This document shows positions 11,830 through 18,887 of a stretch of DNA of 64,000 nt, in pieces; positions within the stretch are counted from its first letter, which is position 1, and every line of letters starts with the position of its first letter. Under the pieces are notes generated by a model. The model made no database searches. It was not told the DNA's origin and saw nothing but the letters and a program-made list of their open reading frames with translations. Position numbers and translations under genes: made by a program. The stretch comes from Lentilactobacillus otakiensis DSM 19908 = JCM 15040 (GTDB lineage: Bacteria > Bacillota > Bacilli > Lactobacillales > Lactobacillaceae): contig NZ_AZED01000011.1 in NCBI RefSeq assembly GCF_001434145.1, positions 62,667-126,666 on the forward strand, given 5' to 3'.

Positions 11830-12744
11830 TTACTTATTAATCTTAGAAACTTCTTCCAAGAACCATTTATTGAAAGCCTCAGCATCAATATCCACACAAA
11901 CATTGGCATTGGTCTGACCATCATGATAGGCACCACGGATATCGCCGACGGTTTCACCAATGGCAGGACCATCAGTCACAATGTCGATCCACATTTTCTT
12001 AGTGGTGATGGCTTCAGGATGAAGCAGGTAGAAAATAGTATTCACATCGTGCATCGCGATTCCGTCAGAACTGTTGTCACCATCATGAATGATAATGTCA
12101 TGCAGCATCTTACCGGTTTCGTTCATGTGCTCAAGCTTGCTGAGAGAGTCAGGGGTCAGCAAGGCCTTCATGGTAATGTCCAAGCCGACCATGGTAATCG
12201 GAATGCCAGAATTGTACATGATTCGAGCAGCATCCGGATCGGTGAAGACGTTGAATTCAGCAGCAGAAGTCATGTTACCTTTGCCGAGTGAGCCACCCAT
12301 TGCAACGATTCGTTCGATGTGATCTTTGACTTCAGGGTATTCGCTGAACAGTAAAGCGATATTGGTATATGAGCCAGTTGGCACCAACGTAATCTTTTCA
12401 TCGCTGCTCATGATGGTTTCCCGTAAAGCTTCAACGGCGGTCACATCCAAAGGCTTTGGCAGATCTTCAGGAAAATCATAGCCAGGCATCCCTGACTCGC
12501 CATGGATTCGGGCAGCATCTTCAAATTCCTTGATCAGTGGCTGCTTGGCACCTTCAGCAACCGGCACCTTCTTGTTAAAGAAGCGGACGATCTTCTGCGC
12601 ATTCTTGGTTGTCTTGTCAACAGTGACGTTACCGGCAACGCTGGTAATCAATTTCAAATCAATCTCAGGATCATTCAGCGCCATGGTCAAAGCGGCAGCA
12701 TCATCAATTCCGGGATCAGTATCCATAATAATTTTGATGGTCAT
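11830..12744 (-). CDS. Inosine/uridine-preferring nucleoside hydrolase
   Basis: Hydrolyses ribonucleosides to ribose and free base. The 304-residue protein begins MTIKIIMDTDPGIDDAAAL, the calcium-binding Asp cluster of the IUNH family, and contains the VAMGGSLGKGNMTSAAEFNVFTDPDAA segment broken here by family insertions. I chose the ATG at 12744, preceded by AAGGA at eight bases, over an earlier ATG seven codons upstream. It is the last gene of a nucleoside uptake operon whose permeases would supply its substrates or export or import the free bases. Confidence 0.93.
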   Translation of the reverse strand: MTIKIIMDTDPGIDDAAALTMALNDPEIDLKLITSVAGNVTVDKTTKNAQKIVRFFNKKVPVAEGAKQPLIKEFEDAARIHGESGMPGYDFPEDLPKPLDVTAVEALRETIMSSDEKITLVPTGSYTNIALLFSEYPEVKDHIERIVAMGGSLGKGNMTSAAEFNVFTDPDAARIMYNSGIPITMVGLDITMKALLTPDSLSKLEHMNETGKMLHDIIIHDGDNSSDGIAMHDVNTIFYLLHPEAITTKKMWIDIVTDGPAIGETVGDIRGAYHDGQTNANVCVDIDAEAFNKWFLEEVSKINK

Positions 12745-12839
12745 GATAAGTTCCTTTCCAAACAATATTTGTCGATATCAAACGCTTACAATCAACTCCT
12801 AACAAGAAGCGAACCGCAAAGTCCGCCCACTTGCTACTT

Positions 12840-14153
12840 CTATAATAAGGCACTAAGCACCAAATCACACAAGAATAAAAATCCTAATACATAAGTTGCG
12901 ACAGTCAATTCTTTTTGCCTGCCGGCAGCAATCTTTAAGATTGGATAAACAACGAATCCAAACGCCAAACCAGTGGAAATACTACTGGTAAATGGAATCA
13001 AAACAACAATCAGAAACGCTGGGAACCAATCGGAAAAATCAAACATATTAATTCGACTGAGCTGGTTCATCATCAAGGCACCAGTAATGATAATGACGGG
13101 TGCAATCGCTGCTTGAGGCACGAAGGCCAACAGCGGGATAAAAAACAACGAAATGGCAAACATGATCCCGGCGACGATTGACGTCAAACCGGTACGGCCG
13201 CCACTCTCAATTGCCGAAGCACTTTCCGCAGCGGCAACCGTGGGGCTAGTTCCCAGAATTCCGGAAAGAAAACTGGTCACAGAACTGGCCTGAAATGCCT
13301 TTTTGAATTTCTTGGGATTCGGCATGATGCCTTCCAAAAGCCCCATCGATTCAAACACCAAGATCATGGTCATCGAAAACACAGCGAGAATAAATGGAAT
13401 CGTGAGAGCATTGCTAAAATTCCCTTTGGCAACAATCGACGAATACCGCCCAATATCACCAATCCCAACGGACGGTGATACCTGATCCTTGATGCCAAAC
13501 AAAATTCCAACAACGGATGTCACCAGAATTCCAATGAAGAAGCCACCGGTGATGTTGCGGACAAACAAGAACAACGTGAGCAGCAAGCCAAACAGCGCCA
13601 ATAAGGTTGCCGGTTTGGTTAAATCACCAAGCGCCAGAATTGAGTTGGTTCCCTGTTTGATCAATTGAGCCTTTTCCAGCCCAATTTCCACTAAGAACAA
13701 TCCAATGCCGGCGGTAATCCCCGCTTTCAAAGTTTCCGGAATTCCCTTCGCCAAAATCTCACTCAATTTGGTGAATGCGATCAAGACGTAGATAATACTG
13801 GAAACAATTGAAATGGCTAAAGCTTCCTGCCAAGACAGGCCCATCGCCACAACCACTGTATAAGTGAAGAAGGCGTTGACCCCCATTCCAGGCGTCAGAA
13901 TGACTGGCGCATTGGCCCAGAATCCCATAATCAAGCAGCCGATGAACGAGGAAATAATTGTCGCAAACACACTTAAGTCGGTCGGAATCCCAGCATCTTT
14001 TAAAATCATCGGATTCACAATGATGATGTAAGAAATCGCGAAAAAGCCTGTAATTCCGGCAATCAATTCTCGTTTGACCGTTGCTTTATCTCGTATAGCC
14101 TCACGAAGAGGCAGCCGGTTAGCTACCTCTTCTTCTCTTTGTAACTTATCCAA
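12840..14153 (-). CDS. NCS2-family purine permease (AzgA/PbuG-like)
   Basis: A membrane transporter for hypoxanthine, guanine or adenine, 437 residues with about 12 hydrophobic segments. Family marks are ELIAGITGFFAISYIIIVNP near the N-terminus, GMGVNAFFTY, GIPETLKAGITAGIGLFL in the middle, and ATVAAAESASAIESGGRTGLT. The start is TTG, eight bases after TTAGG. It follows the CNT nucleoside transporter by 30 bases and precedes the nucleoside hydrolase, which fits a combined nucleoside and nucleobase uptake unit. Confidence 0.92.
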   Translation of the reverse strand: MDKLQREEEVANRLPLREAIRDKATVKRELIAGITGFFAISYIIIVNPMILKDAGIPTDLSVFATIISSFIGCLIMGFWANAPVILTPGMGVNAFFTYTVVVAMGLSWQEALAISIVSSIIYVLIAFTKLSEILAKGIPETLKAGITAGIGLFLVEIGLEKAQLIKQGTNSILALGDLTKPATLLALFGLLLTLFLFVRNITGGFFIGILVTSVVGILFGIKDQVSPSVGIGDIGRYSSIVAKGNFSNALTIPFILAVFSMTMILVFESMGLLEGIMPNPKKFKKAFQASSVTSFLSGILGTSPTVAAAESASAIESGGRTGLTSIVAGIMFAISLFFIPLLAFVPQAAIAPVIIITGALMMNQLSRINMFDFSDWFPAFLIVVLIPFTSSISTGLAFGFVVYPILKIAAGRQKELTVATYVLGFLFLCDLVLSALL

Positions 14154-14183
14154 AAATAAAACCTAACTTTCTAGTTAAAAAGT

Positions 14184-15461
14184 TTACCAAACGAATAATC
14201 CAACGATTCCGGCAGACATCAAGGATACCAAGATACCTGAAAGAAGCATTGTACCAACGTTTTTACTGATCAAATCGTTCTTTTCCTTGTCAACCAATCC
14301 TTTGAAGGCACCGATAATCATACCGGTCGTTGAGAAGTTGGCGAATGAAGTGATGAAGACAGTTAATTGTGCTTGGTAGTGAGCTGGGAAGATGCTGAGG
14401 TTGTTGATGGTACCGGCAATCTTACCCATAACAACGAATTCGTTGGTAACTAACTTCATACCCATGAATTGTGCGAACTGGAATGCCTGGCTGACATCCA
14501 GACCCATTAACCATGCAAATGGGAACATGATGATTCCTAAGATATGTTCCAATGATAACCATGGGTTAAACAAAGCCAAAATCTTATCGATCAAAGCAGC
14601 CAAAGCAACAAAGGCGATAACGTTGGCAGCAATGATTAAGATCAAACGGCCGGCACCCAAGATTGAGTCACCCAAGAATGAGAAGTATGGTTCACGTTTA
14701 CCGTTAGCTTGAACGTCGCCGGATTCAACAGCGGCTTCGCTAACACCTGAGCCACCCATTTTAGCAACAGTATCTTCTTCAGGAGTAACTTTAACGGGGT
14801 TTAATAAACTAGTGATAATCAAGGCGTTTAACACGTTCAATGGAACGGCAGTCAAAACATATTGGCCAGGAACCATTTGTGTATAAGCACCGATGATTGA
14901 GGCGGTAACACATGACATTGACATCAAAGCCAAGGTCAAATTACGTTTTGCTGACATTTGCTTTAATTGAAGTGATGAAACGGCAAGTGCTTCAGTGTTA
15001 CCTAAGAACATCATTTCAACGGCAAAGAATGATTCGAACTTTGGAGCGCCGGTGATGAATGAAAGTCCACGGCCGACCCACTTGATGATCCATGGTAATA
15101 CTCCAATATATGTAAGAGTATCAAACAATGGCACAATCATCAGGATTGGCAGTAACGCGCTGGTGACAAAGTTCATTGATTTGGCAGTTCCACCAAATTG
15201 TGGGGTAACCCAGTTAGGCAAGGCAAAATTGATTCCTTGGTAGGCAACTTGAACTAACCAGTTGAATCCGTCGGCAGCAGCTTTAACTGCGTCACGGCCC
15301 CAAGCAAAACTAGTCAATATCCATGCAAGAACAAGGTTAATAACTAAAACAACGGCAACTGAACGCCAGTTGATACCTTTTTTGTTATTTGAAAACAAGA
15401 AAGCAATTCCAAGGTATACGGCGACACCCAGAATATTGACCAGTAAATATGATAATTGCAT
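14184..15461 (-). CDS. Concentrative nucleoside transporter (CNT/NupC family)
   Basis: A cation-coupled nucleoside importer of 425 residues. The segment FFAVEMMFLGNTEALAVSS matches the CNT gate region, and QFMGMKLVTNEFV and TGMIIGAF match the C-terminal transport core. The ATG at 15461 is preceded by AGAGG; a start 12 codons earlier lacks a site. It lies in the operon between the phosphopentomutase-like gene and the purine permease. Confidence 0.93.
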   Translation of the reverse strand: MQLSYLLVNILGVAVYLGIAFLFSNNKKGINWRSVAVVLVINLVLAWILTSFAWGRDAVKAAADGFNWLVQVAYQGINFALPNWVTPQFGGTAKSMNFVTSALLPILMIVPLFDTLTYIGVLPWIIKWVGRGLSFITGAPKFESFFAVEMMFLGNTEALAVSSLQLKQMSAKRNLTLALMSMSCVTASIIGAYTQMVPGQYVLTAVPLNVLNALIITSLLNPVKVTPEEDTVAKMGGSGVSEAAVESGDVQANGKREPYFSFLGDSILGAGRLILIIAANVIAFVALAALIDKILALFNPWLSLEHILGIIMFPFAWLMGLDVSQAFQFAQFMGMKLVTNEFVVMGKIAGTINNLSIFPAHYQAQLTVFITSFANFSTTGMIIGAFKGLVDKEKNDLISKNVGTMLLSGILVSLMSAGIVGLFVW

Positions 15462-15587
15462 ATTCTGAAATCCTCTTTTCTGAATTTTAAACGACAATAA
15501 TTGCTAAACAACGATGAAGATGACTAGCTATCCCCCTCTGTGATGGAATTGGTTTTATAAATTAAACCCTAAATGATGTGCGGTGAA

Positions 15588-16418
15588 CTATTTCAATTCA
15601 CCAAGAAAACTATGCCCAATGGACTCATTGGAAAAGTCGAGGCCAAAGATTTCACCAATCGTGGCACCTACATCTGCAAGTGTTCTTCTGATACCTAGAG
15701 CCTTGCCCTCAGGCAGAGAAGAAACGTATGCAATCAGTGGCAGGTATTCACGAGTTGGTGTAACGGCAAGGGCTGGGTCATTGGCATACGATGACGTAAT
15801 GATCAAAAGATCAGTGCTGTATAACTCACGCATTAAGCGTGCCAAATGCTGATCTGCCAATTTCAGAGAATCAATGCAGCCCTTGCGATCGCCGGTGGCC
15901 GCATTTTCCTGGAGCCCCATGGCGCGAAAATAAAGCAGCCCATTATTAGGCTTGATCACCTGTTGATGGAGCTGATAAAAGCCGGCTTCATCGGTGTTAA
16001 CAGGAATGACTTCGGCCTCATTTTGATTGGAAAGGTAACTCTGATAGTTGCTGATCAGAATCGAATGAACCCCCAGCAAGCCGACAATTGAATCAATCAC
16101 GCTGGTCGTCCGGGTGGCCGCTTGAAAATCAAACATTTCCCGTAACCCACTGAGTTCTGAATTCTCTTCACTCTTGCTGCGGATCTTGCCGAAAAAGCCA
16201 ATCGGTTCCTCAACTGGTGGCAAGCCGACAACTGGATCAGCGTAACGAATGTTTCCCAGTCCCATCCGGCTTAAAGTAGGCAACTGAAAGTCAGTCCCCT
16301 CCAAAGTCGCAATGTGACCCAATGTGTCCGCTCCAACTGATTCATATCGATTTGCGTCGCTGGCCTCACCGACACCTAAAGATGCCAAATCAAGAACAAT
16401 CACTCGACGAAAGTTCAT
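15588..16418 (-). CDS. Phosphopentomutase-like protein lacking catalytic residues
   Basis: A 276-residue relative of DeoB (normally about 390). The N-terminus VIVLDLASLGVGEASDANRY..VGADTLGHIA and the end TREYLPLIAY..ADVGATIGEIFGL are clearly DeoB-like. The first metal-binding Asp (D10) is kept. The phosphorylated Thr region (TGHWE in DeoB) reads SGLREM. The ADHGND metal motif reads SSYAND, and the His before TREY is Thr. The cap domain is shortened. Conversion of ribose-1-P to ribose-5-P by the known mechanism is therefore unlikely. As first gene of the nucleoside operon it may sense or bind a sugar phosphate; that is speculation. Confidence 0.8.
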   Translation of the reverse strand: MNFRRVIVLDLASLGVGEASDANRYESVGADTLGHIATLEGTDFQLPTLSRMGLGNIRYADPVVGLPPVEEPIGFFGKIRSKSEENSELSGLREMFDFQAATRTTSVIDSIVGLLGVHSILISNYQSYLSNQNEAEVIPVNTDEAGFYQLHQQVIKPNNGLLYFRAMGLQENAATGDRKGCIDSLKLADQHLARLMRELYSTDLLIITSSYANDPALAVTPTREYLPLIAYVSSLPEGKALGIRRTLADVGATIGEIFGLDFSNESIGHSFLGELK

Positions 16419-16545: not shown

Positions 16546-16559
16546 TGATTGCGTTTTCA
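16546..16559 (-). promoter_or_regulatory. cre-like box at the nucleoside operon promoter
   Basis: TGAAAACGCAATCA (minus strand) matches 13 of 14 positions of the cre consensus TGWAARCGYTWNCW. It lies directly after the -10 box, overlapping the predicted transcription start, so CcpA binding should repress the operon. Confidence 0.65.
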
Positions 16560-16587
16560 TTATATCAAAGTGTTTTGATCGCGTAAA
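16559..16587 (-). promoter_or_regulatory. Promoter of the nucleoside operon
   Basis: TTTACG (16582-16587), a 17-bp spacer and a consensus TATAAT (16559-16564) on the minus strand, about 130 bp upstream of the phosphopentomutase-like gene. Confidence 0.75.
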
Positions 16588-16599
16588 CAGAAATATTTT

Positions 16600-16757
16600 G
16601 CCTGGGTGGGATTTATGGAATTTGTCTGGTTTGGGTTTTGAGAATGGGAATTTGTTGGATGAATTTTTGGGGGTTAGTGGAGTTTGTTTGTGGGATTGTT
16701 TGGTGGACCTTGTTTGTGGAGTTTGTTTTATGTATTGGTTGTTTGGTGGTTCTCTGT
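16600..16757. other. Strand-asymmetric G/T-rich low-complexity stretch
   Basis: The plus strand is almost free of C over about 160 bases and repeats motifs such as TTTGTTTGTGG and GGAGTTTGTTT. The minus strand is correspondingly C/A-rich. It lies between repeat R2 copy B and the nucleoside operon promoter and codes for nothing convincing. Confidence 0.7.
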
Positions 16758-16891
16758 TATCTAGCTGAAATGTGCTCCGACGACCCTGCCCCCTACTGTG
16801 TAAGGCAAAAATTTTAACGATGAACAAGAACCGTTCACCATTAAAATTTCTGCCTTACACTCCGGGGGCACCCGGGTCTCGTCGCACTCTA
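16757..16891 (-). repeat. Hairpin repeat R2, copy B
   Basis: Read on the minus strand it starts AGAGTGCGACGAGACCCGGG and ends GGAGCACATTTCAGCTAGAT, enclosing GTGTAAGG..CCTTACAC and an inner stem AATTTTAA..TTAAAATT type hairpin. The ends match copy A closely while the inner stem differs. It abuts the terminator of the candidate noncoding RNA. Confidence 0.85.
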
Positions 16892-16943
16892 CAAAAAAAT
16901 AGGATTCAAACTCGCTTTTTGAACTTGCAAGTTTAAATCCTAT
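16892..16943 (-). terminator. Terminator of the candidate noncoding RNA
   Basis: A 17-bp stem with two G-U wobbles on the minus strand (they would be C-A mismatches on the plus strand), 11-nt loop, then seven T residues. Confidence 0.9.
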
Positions 16944-17655
16944 ACGGAAGGGAACTTTGGGGTAAATACCCACTTCATTAAAACTTTAATGTCTTATCGC
17001 CTCAATCTAACTATTTGTTGATCCAACTGCCGCAAACTTTAATCATTTTTCACGTTTTTACTTTATTGATAAATTTGCCGTGGTGTCAACATTTTGGTTC
17101 TTCGTGCAACTAACATACTTGGTACAACTGCTTGATACCGGTACATAAACCTAAGGTGCATGGTACTTGTTAATCGTGAACCTTAAACTTAAAACCTTTT
17201 GGAACTTTCATCAACTTGATATCACATCAATTTGATATTCGAAATGAATCTCTCAGACTCACTACAAGTGACCTCTGTACATAACCCTTTTCAATTACTC
17301 CACTAGGTTTTCAATAGCGAACCATCGAATTCATATTTGAACATGTGTGACTCATAACATTATATTCAAACACTTAATCACCTGAATTAACCTTCTGTTA
17401 TTTTAAACTGTAACAATTTGAAACTCTGTGAATCTTTGAAACAATCGGCTAAATAAAACATTCTATTCGAACTTCCATGCTTCTATGAATCGTGAACCTC
17501 AAACTCTTAAAACTTAAAATAAACAACTATGCGTTCTACATGTGAAACATTTGAAAATAATCCTGTGACATAACAACATATTAATCTTGGATCAGAGAAC
17601 ATTCAAAGTAGGCTGAAACCCCTATGCTTCGAACTTCTTTTCCCTTCCTTGACTA
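16892..17655 (-). ncRNA. Candidate long noncoding RNA, about 760 nt
   Basis: No ORF of useful length exists on either strand from 16974 to 17655, yet the stretch has both ends of a transcription unit. At the 3' end a 17-bp stem (16899-16915 with 16927-16943) precedes TTTTTTT on the minus strand. Two of its pairs are G-U only if the minus strand is the RNA, so the strand is well supported. At the 5' end there is a promoter overlapped by a perfect cre box. The AT-rich interior repeats an approximately 25-nt block (17172 and 17488) and TTCGAA motifs. It is not a recognised RNA; ROOL or GOLLD-like large RNAs are possible relatives. Confidence 0.65.
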
Positions 17656-17684
17656 TATAATATCATATCTGTAAGCGTTTGCAA
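17656..17684 (-). promoter_or_regulatory. Promoter of the candidate noncoding RNA
   Basis: TTGCAA (17679-17684) and ATTATA (17656-17661) separated by 17 bp on the minus strand, within the A/T-rich TATGATATTATATAG segment. The exact -10 hexamer is ambiguous by a few bases. Confidence 0.55.
17670..17683 (+). promoter_or_regulatory. cre box (CcpA operator)
   Basis: TGTAAGCGTTTGCA matches all 14 positions of TGWAARCGYTWNCW. It overlaps the -35 region of the ncRNA promoter, a repressing position. Confidence 0.8.
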
Positions 17685-17745
17685 GTATTAAATACTCTTT
17701 TTTTGAATTTATTTCGGAACGTTGCTTTCACGCGGTTCAGAGCAT

Positions 17746-17780
17746 CAAAAAACACGGTTGCTTAGACGCTCAACCGTGTT
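17746..17780 (-). terminator. Terminator of the Ser/Thr-rich surface protein gene
   Basis: AACACGGTTG/CAACCGTGTT form a perfect 10-bp stem followed by a T run on the minus strand. Confidence 0.9.
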
Positions 17781-17792
17781 CTGTCTTCGTTA

Positions 17793-18887
17793 TTATTTAA
17801 AAAGAAATCTCAATGGATCAAAGGCAATAAACGTAACCCCGGCAACTGCGATGACCGCCAAAGTTGCCATGACGGGAAGGGTTTCAGAAATCCCAGTCGA
17901 ATCGTGTTCCATGTACTTAACATGCTTGACTGGCGTGGTCAAAGTTGCCTTACTGCCAGTTACGGTTGTAATCGTACCGGGCTTCTGGGCTGTTTTCAAG
18001 ACATGACGGTAAATCGTGTTTGAAAACGCGTTAAATGTCAGTAGTTTGGTCTTATTGCTCGTAATCGCACTCGCCGCCTTGACTGCCTTTGGATCACTGT
18101 TCGTGACCTTATCAGCAAAGGTATCGCCTACAATATCGTTATGGACGTTTGAGCTCTCAATAATTGTCTGATCAGGGACAATCAAAGTCTCTTCAGTCTT
18201 GCCAGGTTGGGCTGTATCTGGCGATTCAAGCACAACCGTCGAATCGTCAGGTGTGTCTACTGCAGATGATGCAGTTTGAGCTTGAACATCTGAATCAGAT
18301 TTATCGGCATCTGGGATAACCTTATCGACAACGGTTTTCACAACATTATCGATTGCGTCATCCCCTGCGCCAACTACTGAAGCGCCAGCATTTAAATCAC
18401 TGCTGGTCGCGCTGGATGAACTGGTTGCAGAACTGGTACTCTCACTAGCAGTGCTTTCTGACTCGGAATCAGCTTGTTGGGTAGTTGTCTGTTGTGGTGT
18501 GGCAGAACTAACCGAGCTTTCGGAAACCGCAGTCGTTTCACCCTTGGCATCGCTAGTATCGTCATTATCCGTTGGTTTGACCTGGTTATCCTTGGCATCA
18601 CCATATGTAGTCGTCACGCTACTGCTGTCAGAATTTTTGTTTGCTTTAGAATCATCAAGTTGACTGCTTGAACTGCCCTCAGAATCAGTGTCTGCAGAAG
18701 TGTTGGATGACGTCCCGTTTGCTGGGTTGGCAGACACAGTCGACTTGGAATTACTGATTGATTGAACTTCCGTCGATGACTGCGTTGAGCCGGTAGTAGC
18801 AGCTTGTGCCTGAGTACCTACCCCAAAACCGCCAAAGACTATCAACGAAAACAACAGTGTTAACCTGTATTTTGATTTCGTATTCAT
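17793..18887 (-). CDS. Secreted Ser/Thr-rich membrane-anchored surface protein
   Basis: A 364-residue protein with a signal peptide (residues 1-29, ending TQAQAA), then about 160 residues of low-complexity Ser, Thr, Asp, Ala and Gln, likely a stalk or glycosylated linker. A less biased region (about 180-320) follows, with a C-terminal hydrophobic helix ending FDPLRFLFK. The ETLPVMATL before the helix resembles the layout of a sortase signal but lacks LPxTG. It is divergent from the SGNH hydrolase gene. I do not recognise a functional domain. Confidence 0.75.
   Translation of the reverse strand: MNTKSKYRLTLLFSLIVFGGFGVGTQAQAATTGSTQSSTEVQSISNSKSTVSANPANGTSSNTSADTDSEGSSSSQLDDSKANKNSDSSSVTTTYGDAKDNQVKPTDNDDTSDAKGETTAVSESSVSSATPQQTTTQQADSESESTASESTSSATSSSSATSSDLNAGASVVGAGDDAIDNVVKTVVDKVIPDADKSDSDVQAQTASSAVDTPDDSTVVLESPDTAQPGKTEETLIVPDQTIIESSNVHNDIVGDTFADKVTNSDPKAVKAASAITSNKTKLLTFNAFSNTIYRHVLKTAQKPGTITTVTGSKATLTTPVKHVKYMEHDSTGISETLPVMATLAVIAVAGVTFIAFDPLRFLFK

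Follow-up and report, generated by a model that had tools for sequence, protein, structure and literature searches.

The window, a stretch of 64,000 nucleotides from Lentilactobacillus otakiensis DSM 19908 = JCM 15040 (contig NZ_AZED01000011.1), carries on its minus strand a candidate gene for a long RNA, upstream of a row of nucleoside genes. The features of the locus, in window positions, are as follows.

17684-17679, minus: -35 hexamer TTGCAA (promoter scan)
17670..17684, minus: cre box TTGCAAACGCTTACA, 0 mismatches to WTGNAANCGNWNNCA, overlapping the -35 hexamer (17679-17684)
17657..17662, minus: -10 hexamer TATTAT after a 16-nt spacer (promoter scan)
16892..17650, minus: putative RNA gene, about 760 nt, with homologues in three genera; 5′ end placed from the -10 hexamer
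17642..17648, minus: P1 5′ strand GGAAGGG, pairing with 16946-16952
17606..17612, minus: P2 5′ strand CCTACTT, long-range pairing with 16969-16975
17253..17325, minus: M domain, a stem with covarying pairs and a conserved internal loop, Lentilactobacillus only (placed with model R1)
17016..17091, minus: Pa/Pb double hairpin (Pa, 17086-17091 with 17016-17021; Pb, 17072-17078 with 17032-17038)
16995..17003, minus: constant word GAGGCGATA (GAGGCGAT in all three genera), from alignments
16969..16975, minus: P2 3′ strand AAGTGGG, long-range pairing with 17606-17612
16946..16952, minus: P1 3′ strand CCCTTCC, pairing with 17642-17648
16892..16943, minus: intrinsic terminator, 17-bp stem and U-tract (fold; hairpin and T-run in homologues)
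16559..16587, minus: putative separate operon promoter TTTACG-17-TATAAT (promoter scans)
16546-16560, minus: putative second cre box ATGAAAACGCAATCA, just downstream of the operon -10
11830..16418, minus: gene row encoding a metalloenzyme-superfamily (DeoB-like) protein, NupC-type transporter, Xan_ur permease and nucleoside hydrolase, recurring in three genera

Comparisons were made over 44 regions, of which 39 were two-ended; one end was missing in G008 (the contig begins inside the RNA), G004 (P1 altered), G001 (truncated), and G184 and G050 (rejected matches), which were left out of the two-ended set. A sequence-only reading of the locus had described a long stretch lacking a useful open reading frame (ORF), bounded by a promoter-like element with a perfect cre box on its -35 region and by a 17-bp terminator whose two G-U pairs suit the minus strand alone, and each of these elements was recovered. 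The promoter TTGCAA-16-TATTAT (17684-17657) is conserved among the homologues, and TATTATATAGTCAAGGAAGGG at the -10 position is almost unchanging in the alignment across Lentilactobacillus. A promoter match by itself would be weak evidence; because the scan of the region returned 11 promoter-like sites versus 4.7 in shuffled sequences, the promoter was judged on its conservation, which is what should count. In the minus-strand fold, the terminator stem (16943-16927 with 16915-16899) has 17 pairs, an 11-nt loop and a U-tract of seven U (16898-16892), and inspection by eye showed two of its pairs to be G-U on the minus strand and A-C if read on the plus strand; the terminator scan missed it, since scan loops were limited to 3-8 nt. 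In a permissive test run without a control, a terminator-like hairpin followed by a T-run was found after the RNA in 38 of the 39 two-ended loci, G021 being the exception. The minus-strand folding energy gave z = -2.5, with 1 of 20 shuffles equally good, an excess that is only suggestive of a structured RNA. No ORF of at least 40 aa overlaps 16974-17720 on either strand. The repeat blocks noticed in the interior near 17172 and 17488 are real, as an 18-nt repeat of 94% identity (17172-17189 and 17488-17505), but the copy near 17172 is recognizable in just a few homologues, so the repeat lies outside the conserved core; the interior TTCGAA motif, likewise pointed out earlier, sits at 17628-17633, within a local stem when this sequence is folded by itself. 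Adjoining the 3′ end of the RNA is a 136-bp palindromic REP/MITE-like element (window 16755-16890, minus), which has 33 matches of 68–100% identity in the same genome and pieces dispersed in related genomes.

Homologues, which the same reading had proposed to seek in Lentilactobacillus, were found by DNA search in 22 of 24 genomes of that genus, its own genome included, the two misses being genomes 88% and 86% complete. One of the 22 (G001) is a truncated copy retaining only the first ~110 nt; here (L035:4010-4170) a natural internal deletion has left the promoter, the cre box and ~110 nt of the RNA beside the U-tract. Two covariance models, R2 built from the 3′ core and R3 from all three genera, were both trained on some of the genomes that they afterwards detected. 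With R3, all 35 Levilactobacillus genomes matched, at one match per genome, as did 13 of the 15 Secundilactobacillus genomes, the remaining two having no match. Applied to 301 genomes of the family at E ≤ 0.1, R2 gave 38 matches, comprising 14 in Lentilactobacillus, 12 in Secundilactobacillus, 10 in Levilactobacillus and two (G184 and G050) that were rejected as being without GAGGCGAT. In the same 301 genomes, R3 gave 44 matches, 40 of them within the three genera; R3 matches in G099, G195, G156 and G306 (24.8–27.2 bits) were rejected for having no GAGGCGAT within the surrounding 4–4.5 kb, and one in G541 (38.9 bits) for lying inside a reading frame, which we take to be that of PlsX. The order-wide R3 search of 198 genomes, run with the stricter filters used for all searches over more than 40 genomes, gave four matches, three in Lentilactobacillus and one false match inside a protein gene. 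Moreover, a pattern scan of 84,980 named genomes yielded 46 stretches, of which 33 scored with R2, all titled Lentilactobacillus, Secundilactobacillus, Levilactobacillus or unplaced Lactobacillus; the other 13, all from outside Lactobacillaceae, had no R2 score and were rejected. Complete second copies were present at other genome sites in L. hilgardii and L. farraginis. Within the reach of these models, the RNA appears to be limited to three related genera, within which it is dispensable, judging from the two Secundilactobacillus genomes without a match and the truncated copy in G001.

Scored against the consensus WTGNAANCGNWNNCA, a cre box with at most one mismatch lies on the -35 region, that is, at the promoter as in genes of the CcpA regulon, in 39 of 39 two-ended loci; 36 were exact as scored (in G023 the box was scored one base away on the opposite strand) and three had one mismatch. 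By consensus arithmetic with equal base frequencies, an exact cre box would be expected by chance in fewer than 1 in 1000 such 75-base stretches. Its letters vary by genus yet fit the consensus (TTGCAAACGCTTACA, TTGTAACCGGTTACA and others), and this persistence of the fit despite the changed letters favors selection for CcpA binding. A cre box over the -35 region leads to repression. From the position of the box, the RNA gene is very probably repressed by CcpA, and the RNA is probably expressed once preferred sugars run out.

The predicted architecture of the RNA is retained while its sequence drifts between homologues. The distance from P1 strand to P1 strand is 436–703 nt in the 39 two-ended loci, or about 490–760 nt with the terminator. 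RNAalifold returned no pairs on A4, a MAFFT alignment of the three genera, a failure blamed on misaligned arms in A4, and because it gave no structure, helices were searched for with swap controls. The covarying pairs anticipated by the sequence-only reading were indeed found, in P1, P2, Pa/Pb and M, by shuffle and swap controls in place of R-scape; these controls leave the relatedness between sequences uncorrected. P1, which would join the two ends, is GGAAGGG/CCCUUCC in Lentilactobacillus, GGAAAGG/CCUUUCC in Levilactobacillus and GGAAGAG/CUCUUCC in Secundilactobacillus, so that between genera two of its seven pairs go from GC to AU, both strands having changed. Its 5′ strand was located by exact complementarity to the 3′ strand, and where several candidates existed the one with the best cre box was chosen; its pairing in 39 of 39 loci is therefore by construction. 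Its spacing is not by construction: P1 was scored 8 nt past the -10 hexamer in 33 of the 39 loci, and in the remaining six, for which the script chose another site, the hexamer is nonetheless present 8 nt upstream in the printed letters. G004, recovered by R3 though outside the two-ended set, has by eye a P1 with one more changed pair and a one-base bulge.

The arms of P2 lie ~34–76 nt inside the 5′ end and ~20 nt ahead of the P1 3′ strand. They occur as CCUACUU/AAGUGGG, CCCGCUU/AAGCGGG, CCCGUUU with AAGCGGG or AAACGGG, and UUUCCGUUU/AAACGGAAA, with one mismatch each in G010 and G023. Over 37 distinct loci, the P2 score was 20.1, versus a mean of 16.8 and a maximum of 18.6 in 300 swaps, 15.6 in between-genus swaps and 13.2 with a shuffled 5′ arm; this test kept the row of G005b, whose 3′ arm came from the wrong place. 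The pair comparison kept the row of G198, whose 5′ arm was mispicked there (five pairs) and for which the swap-test run found a longer helix. A local hairpin GGGU-ACCC was dropped from R3 as conflicting with P2. In 35 sequences, the Pa/Pb helices survive many changes of sequence, and the CGG and CAG that lie between the two are conserved; Pa had a mean of 7.4 pairs, versus 5.8 with swapped arms and a maximum of 6.4 in 1000 swaps of those 35 sequences, among which misanchored rows were kept (L032 at a wrong CAG, L077 at an earlier one).

The M domain, evaluated in 17 sequences that do not include the present locus, had 11 of 17 pairs changed on both sides. Its cells changed on both sides numbered 42 versus 15 in shuffles (0 of 500 as high), and 94.5% of cells were paired versus 84.9% in shuffles and 23–43% when slid, while further pair types (17) did not exceed the shuffled mean (17.0). 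R1, the model of this domain, matched 14 of the 301 family genomes, all Lentilactobacillus, and gave nothing convincing on the loci of the other two genera (best E 0.45). At L033:6042-6203, assigned to sp. Marseille-Q4993, M is followed in the same RNA by a weaker second match (39.7 and 23.8 bits). In a Secundilactobacillus interior (L126:5952-6067), a 21-nt AU-rich repeat occurs six times in imperfect form.

Across the aligned homologues that were accepted, GAGGCGAU is unchanged, the word having also served as an acceptance test. Being constant and apparently unpaired, it could be the seed of a trans-acting base-pairing RNA, a sponge or antisense regulator tuning carbon or nucleoside mRNAs, a role with which catabolite control, the conserved neighborhood described below and the interior repeats, near-tandem in one Secundilactobacillus, would agree. 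Much of the conservation lies in covarying helices, however, the interior changes fast and the RNA is large for such a regulator, and we consider this alternative unlikely.

That the promoter, cre box, P1, P2, core word and terminator recur in three genera points to more than chance. Decayed, non-functional DNA or a mobile element, which the dispersed 136-bp palindromic element beside the 3′ end might bring to mind, would hardly preserve these elements, give a single match in each of the 35 Levilactobacillus genomes or show covariation, and we regard such an origin as highly improbable.

An mRNA for a small protein is equally hard to credit. Sense ORFs are present, the longest being 20–54 aa across the 39 loci and 32 aa in the present RNA (shuffled mean, 44), but none exceeds what shuffles allow (p 0.16–1.0), and peptide comparison across genera gave only three weak, short matches, two of them forming one reciprocal pair (best E 0.002). 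The comparison covered sense ORFs; those on the antisense strand, the longest of 91 aa, were counted only. A conserved reading frame, which would have spoken against the sequence-only reading, was thus not found in the 39 loci, and neither was the other outcome that it had named as contrary, a match to a known RNA family at the locus or in five relatives. Rfam 15 (4227 families) at gathering thresholds gave no match to the RNA, the matches in the window being only a T-box leader (10502-10273, minus) and a TPP riboswitch (46999-46911, minus), both ordinary. At E ≤ 10, positions 16700-17850 gave only microRNA-type matches to the adjoining palindrome and an lncRNA fragment at E 9.4, the microRNA names being rejected as matches to the palindrome at 16783-16877; five relative loci gave no match at E ≤ 1. 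Covarying helices without a conserved reading frame, the combination by which a large structured non-coding RNA is recognized, were thus found together.

Among known large RNAs, ROOL (RF03087), linked with an abundant lncRNA of L. salivarius in PMC12286853, is similar in being large, structured and found in lactobacilli among others, with no protein product known (PMC12286853 and PMC5643018). ROOL, however, is described in the former as residing in phages and prophages, often near tRNA islands, whereas the present RNA lies beside a nucleoside operon. The ROOL model did not match it, either at positions 16700-17850 at E ≤ 10 or in five relative loci at E ≤ 1, and in 12 genomes no match was above the cut-off, one of 15.9 bits lying elsewhere in G007; 14 control genomes were also negative, so that this search had no positive control. 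GOLLD (RF02032), in PMC12286853 a large ornate RNA of Lactobacillales and phages, had no model match at the locus or in the relatives tested, and none above the cut-off in 12 genomes (one of 16.6 bits, E 0.041, elsewhere in G007; controls also negative). OLE, a large, structured, protein-binding RNA of Gram-positive bacteria according to PMC12286853, had no match in the all-Rfam scans (4227 families; the locus and five relatives). The RNA is thus, by its predicted features, comparable in kind to ROOL, GOLLD and OLE without matching their models. The L. plantarum supermotifs (LPSM) of 800–1000 nt are likewise long non-coding RNAs of a lactobacillus but, by description only, occur in many copies and are specific to L. 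plantarum (PMC5643018), whereas the present RNA is mostly single-copy and belongs to three other genera; the main text of PMC5643018 makes no mention of 'ccpA'. The 6S RNA of lactic acid bacteria is also non-coding, and 'over a third' of the genes for it have a cre site (PMC8414754), but no 6S match was found by Rfam at the present locus. No earlier description of the RNA was found in the open literature of PubMed Central, a scope outside which most subscription journals lie.

The nucleoside gene row lies downstream of the RNA on the same strand in 38 of 38 readable primary loci, its first gene missing in some, while the gene on the other side of the RNA mostly varies by genus. These 38, which include the truncated copy of G001, are the 44 neighborhood entries less two rejected (G184 and G050), two at contig ends (G004 and G021) and two second copies (G007b and G005b). 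An RNA-seq paper on L. buchneri (PMC4521753) lists nupC, a permease and rihB; its main text contains none of the words 'non-coding', 'ncRNA' and 'intergenic'. The constant order of RNA and operon in three genera, held though the other neighbor changes, is what would be expected if the RNA served the nucleoside operon as a very long 5′ leader, an attenuator or riboswitch-like element whose terminator is the switch. However, the RNA has, ahead of the operon, its own terminator-like hairpin (38 of 39 loci in the permissive test), and a scan without a chance control placed a promoter-like site in the interval separating the two in 33 of 38 loci. The form of this site repeats within each genus: 6 of 20 Lentilactobacillus have TTTACG-17-TATAAT, 8 of 10 Secundilactobacillus have TTTACG-17-TAGAAT or TTTACG-17-TAAAAT, and 8 of 8 Levilactobacillus have TTTACA-17-TATATT. 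Moreover, an extra gene separates RNA and operon in three species (G002, G010 and G023), the transporter gene occurs without a detected upstream RNA in G042, G078 and G012 (R3 negative on those stretches), the operon promoter is intact in G001 where the RNA is truncated, and the second copies in two species have no such operon behind them. Because the operon seems to own a promoter and to survive without the RNA, the RNA is probably not its leader, a role that we judge quite improbable. An exact cre box is also found at the operon promoter in 15 of 20 Lentilactobacillus and 0 of 18 others, and RNA and operon may be under common CcpA control in many Lentilactobacillus.

A second small RNA candidate of ~60–110 nt, with a TATAAT-type promoter, constant UUCCUUGGCAGGGGC, a variable hairpin and a terminator, was noticed near the nucleoside operon in Secundilactobacillus, two Lentilactobacillus (G002 and G010) and one further genus, there on the opposite strand. 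UUCCUUGGCAGGGGC was found in 37 of 213 loci, 13 of which were aligned; positions of the candidate are L126:6559 (+), L123:6060 (-), L197:1679 (+), L036:2993 (-), L116:4663 (-) and L201:2458 (-). Rfam gave no match on L070, which contains it.

Collectively, the comparison of genomes points to a conserved promoter, cre box and terminator, a covarying architecture free of any conserved reading frame, and a spread over three genera, and by these features the locus appears to represent a new family of large, structured, stand-alone non-coding RNA, set apart from LPSM by description. The stand-alone structured RNA proposed by the sequence-only reading thus agrees with an RNA that has its own cre-promoter and terminator in three genera, covarying helices, no conserved ORF and no Rfam match. 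We infer its transcription, its repression by CcpA and its function as a scaffold. CcpA bound to the cre box over the -35 region would block the promoter, and the RNA would be made when preferred sugars are exhausted. The transcript would then fold with its two ends joined by P1 and with P2 as a second long-range helix, with the unchanging GAGGCGAU lying as a strand from P2 to the Pa/Pb hairpin, while the fast-changing interior would bear extra domains, and it would stop at its own terminator. It would most likely act as a folded RNA, our best guess being a scaffold for a protein or for itself, rather than as an mRNA, antisense RNA or leader. Taken as a whole, a stand-alone gene encoding a large, structured RNA without a protein product, blocked by CcpA at its cre promoter, switched on by sugar exhaustion and functioning through its fold, is the reading that we find likely.

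Much more tentatively, and with more doubt than belief, the RNA might be a chromosomal, starvation-controlled ornate RNA of heterofermentative lactobacilli that assembles into a multimer of RNA alone or into a body of RNA and protein. It would then be the housekeeping equivalent of the cages that phage-linked ROOL and GOLLD form, and would come on when CcpA is released as sugar runs out. Only a few classes of large, structured RNA are known from bacteria; two of these, ROOL and GOLLD, form RNA cages of unknown function, the ROOL nanocage being octameric. The RNA described here is predicted in almost all species sampled from three food-lactobacillus genera, and its cre box provides a built-in clue to physiology. 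Were it deleted, and its expression switched by sugar, in laboratory strains, the role of large ornate RNAs would become directly testable.
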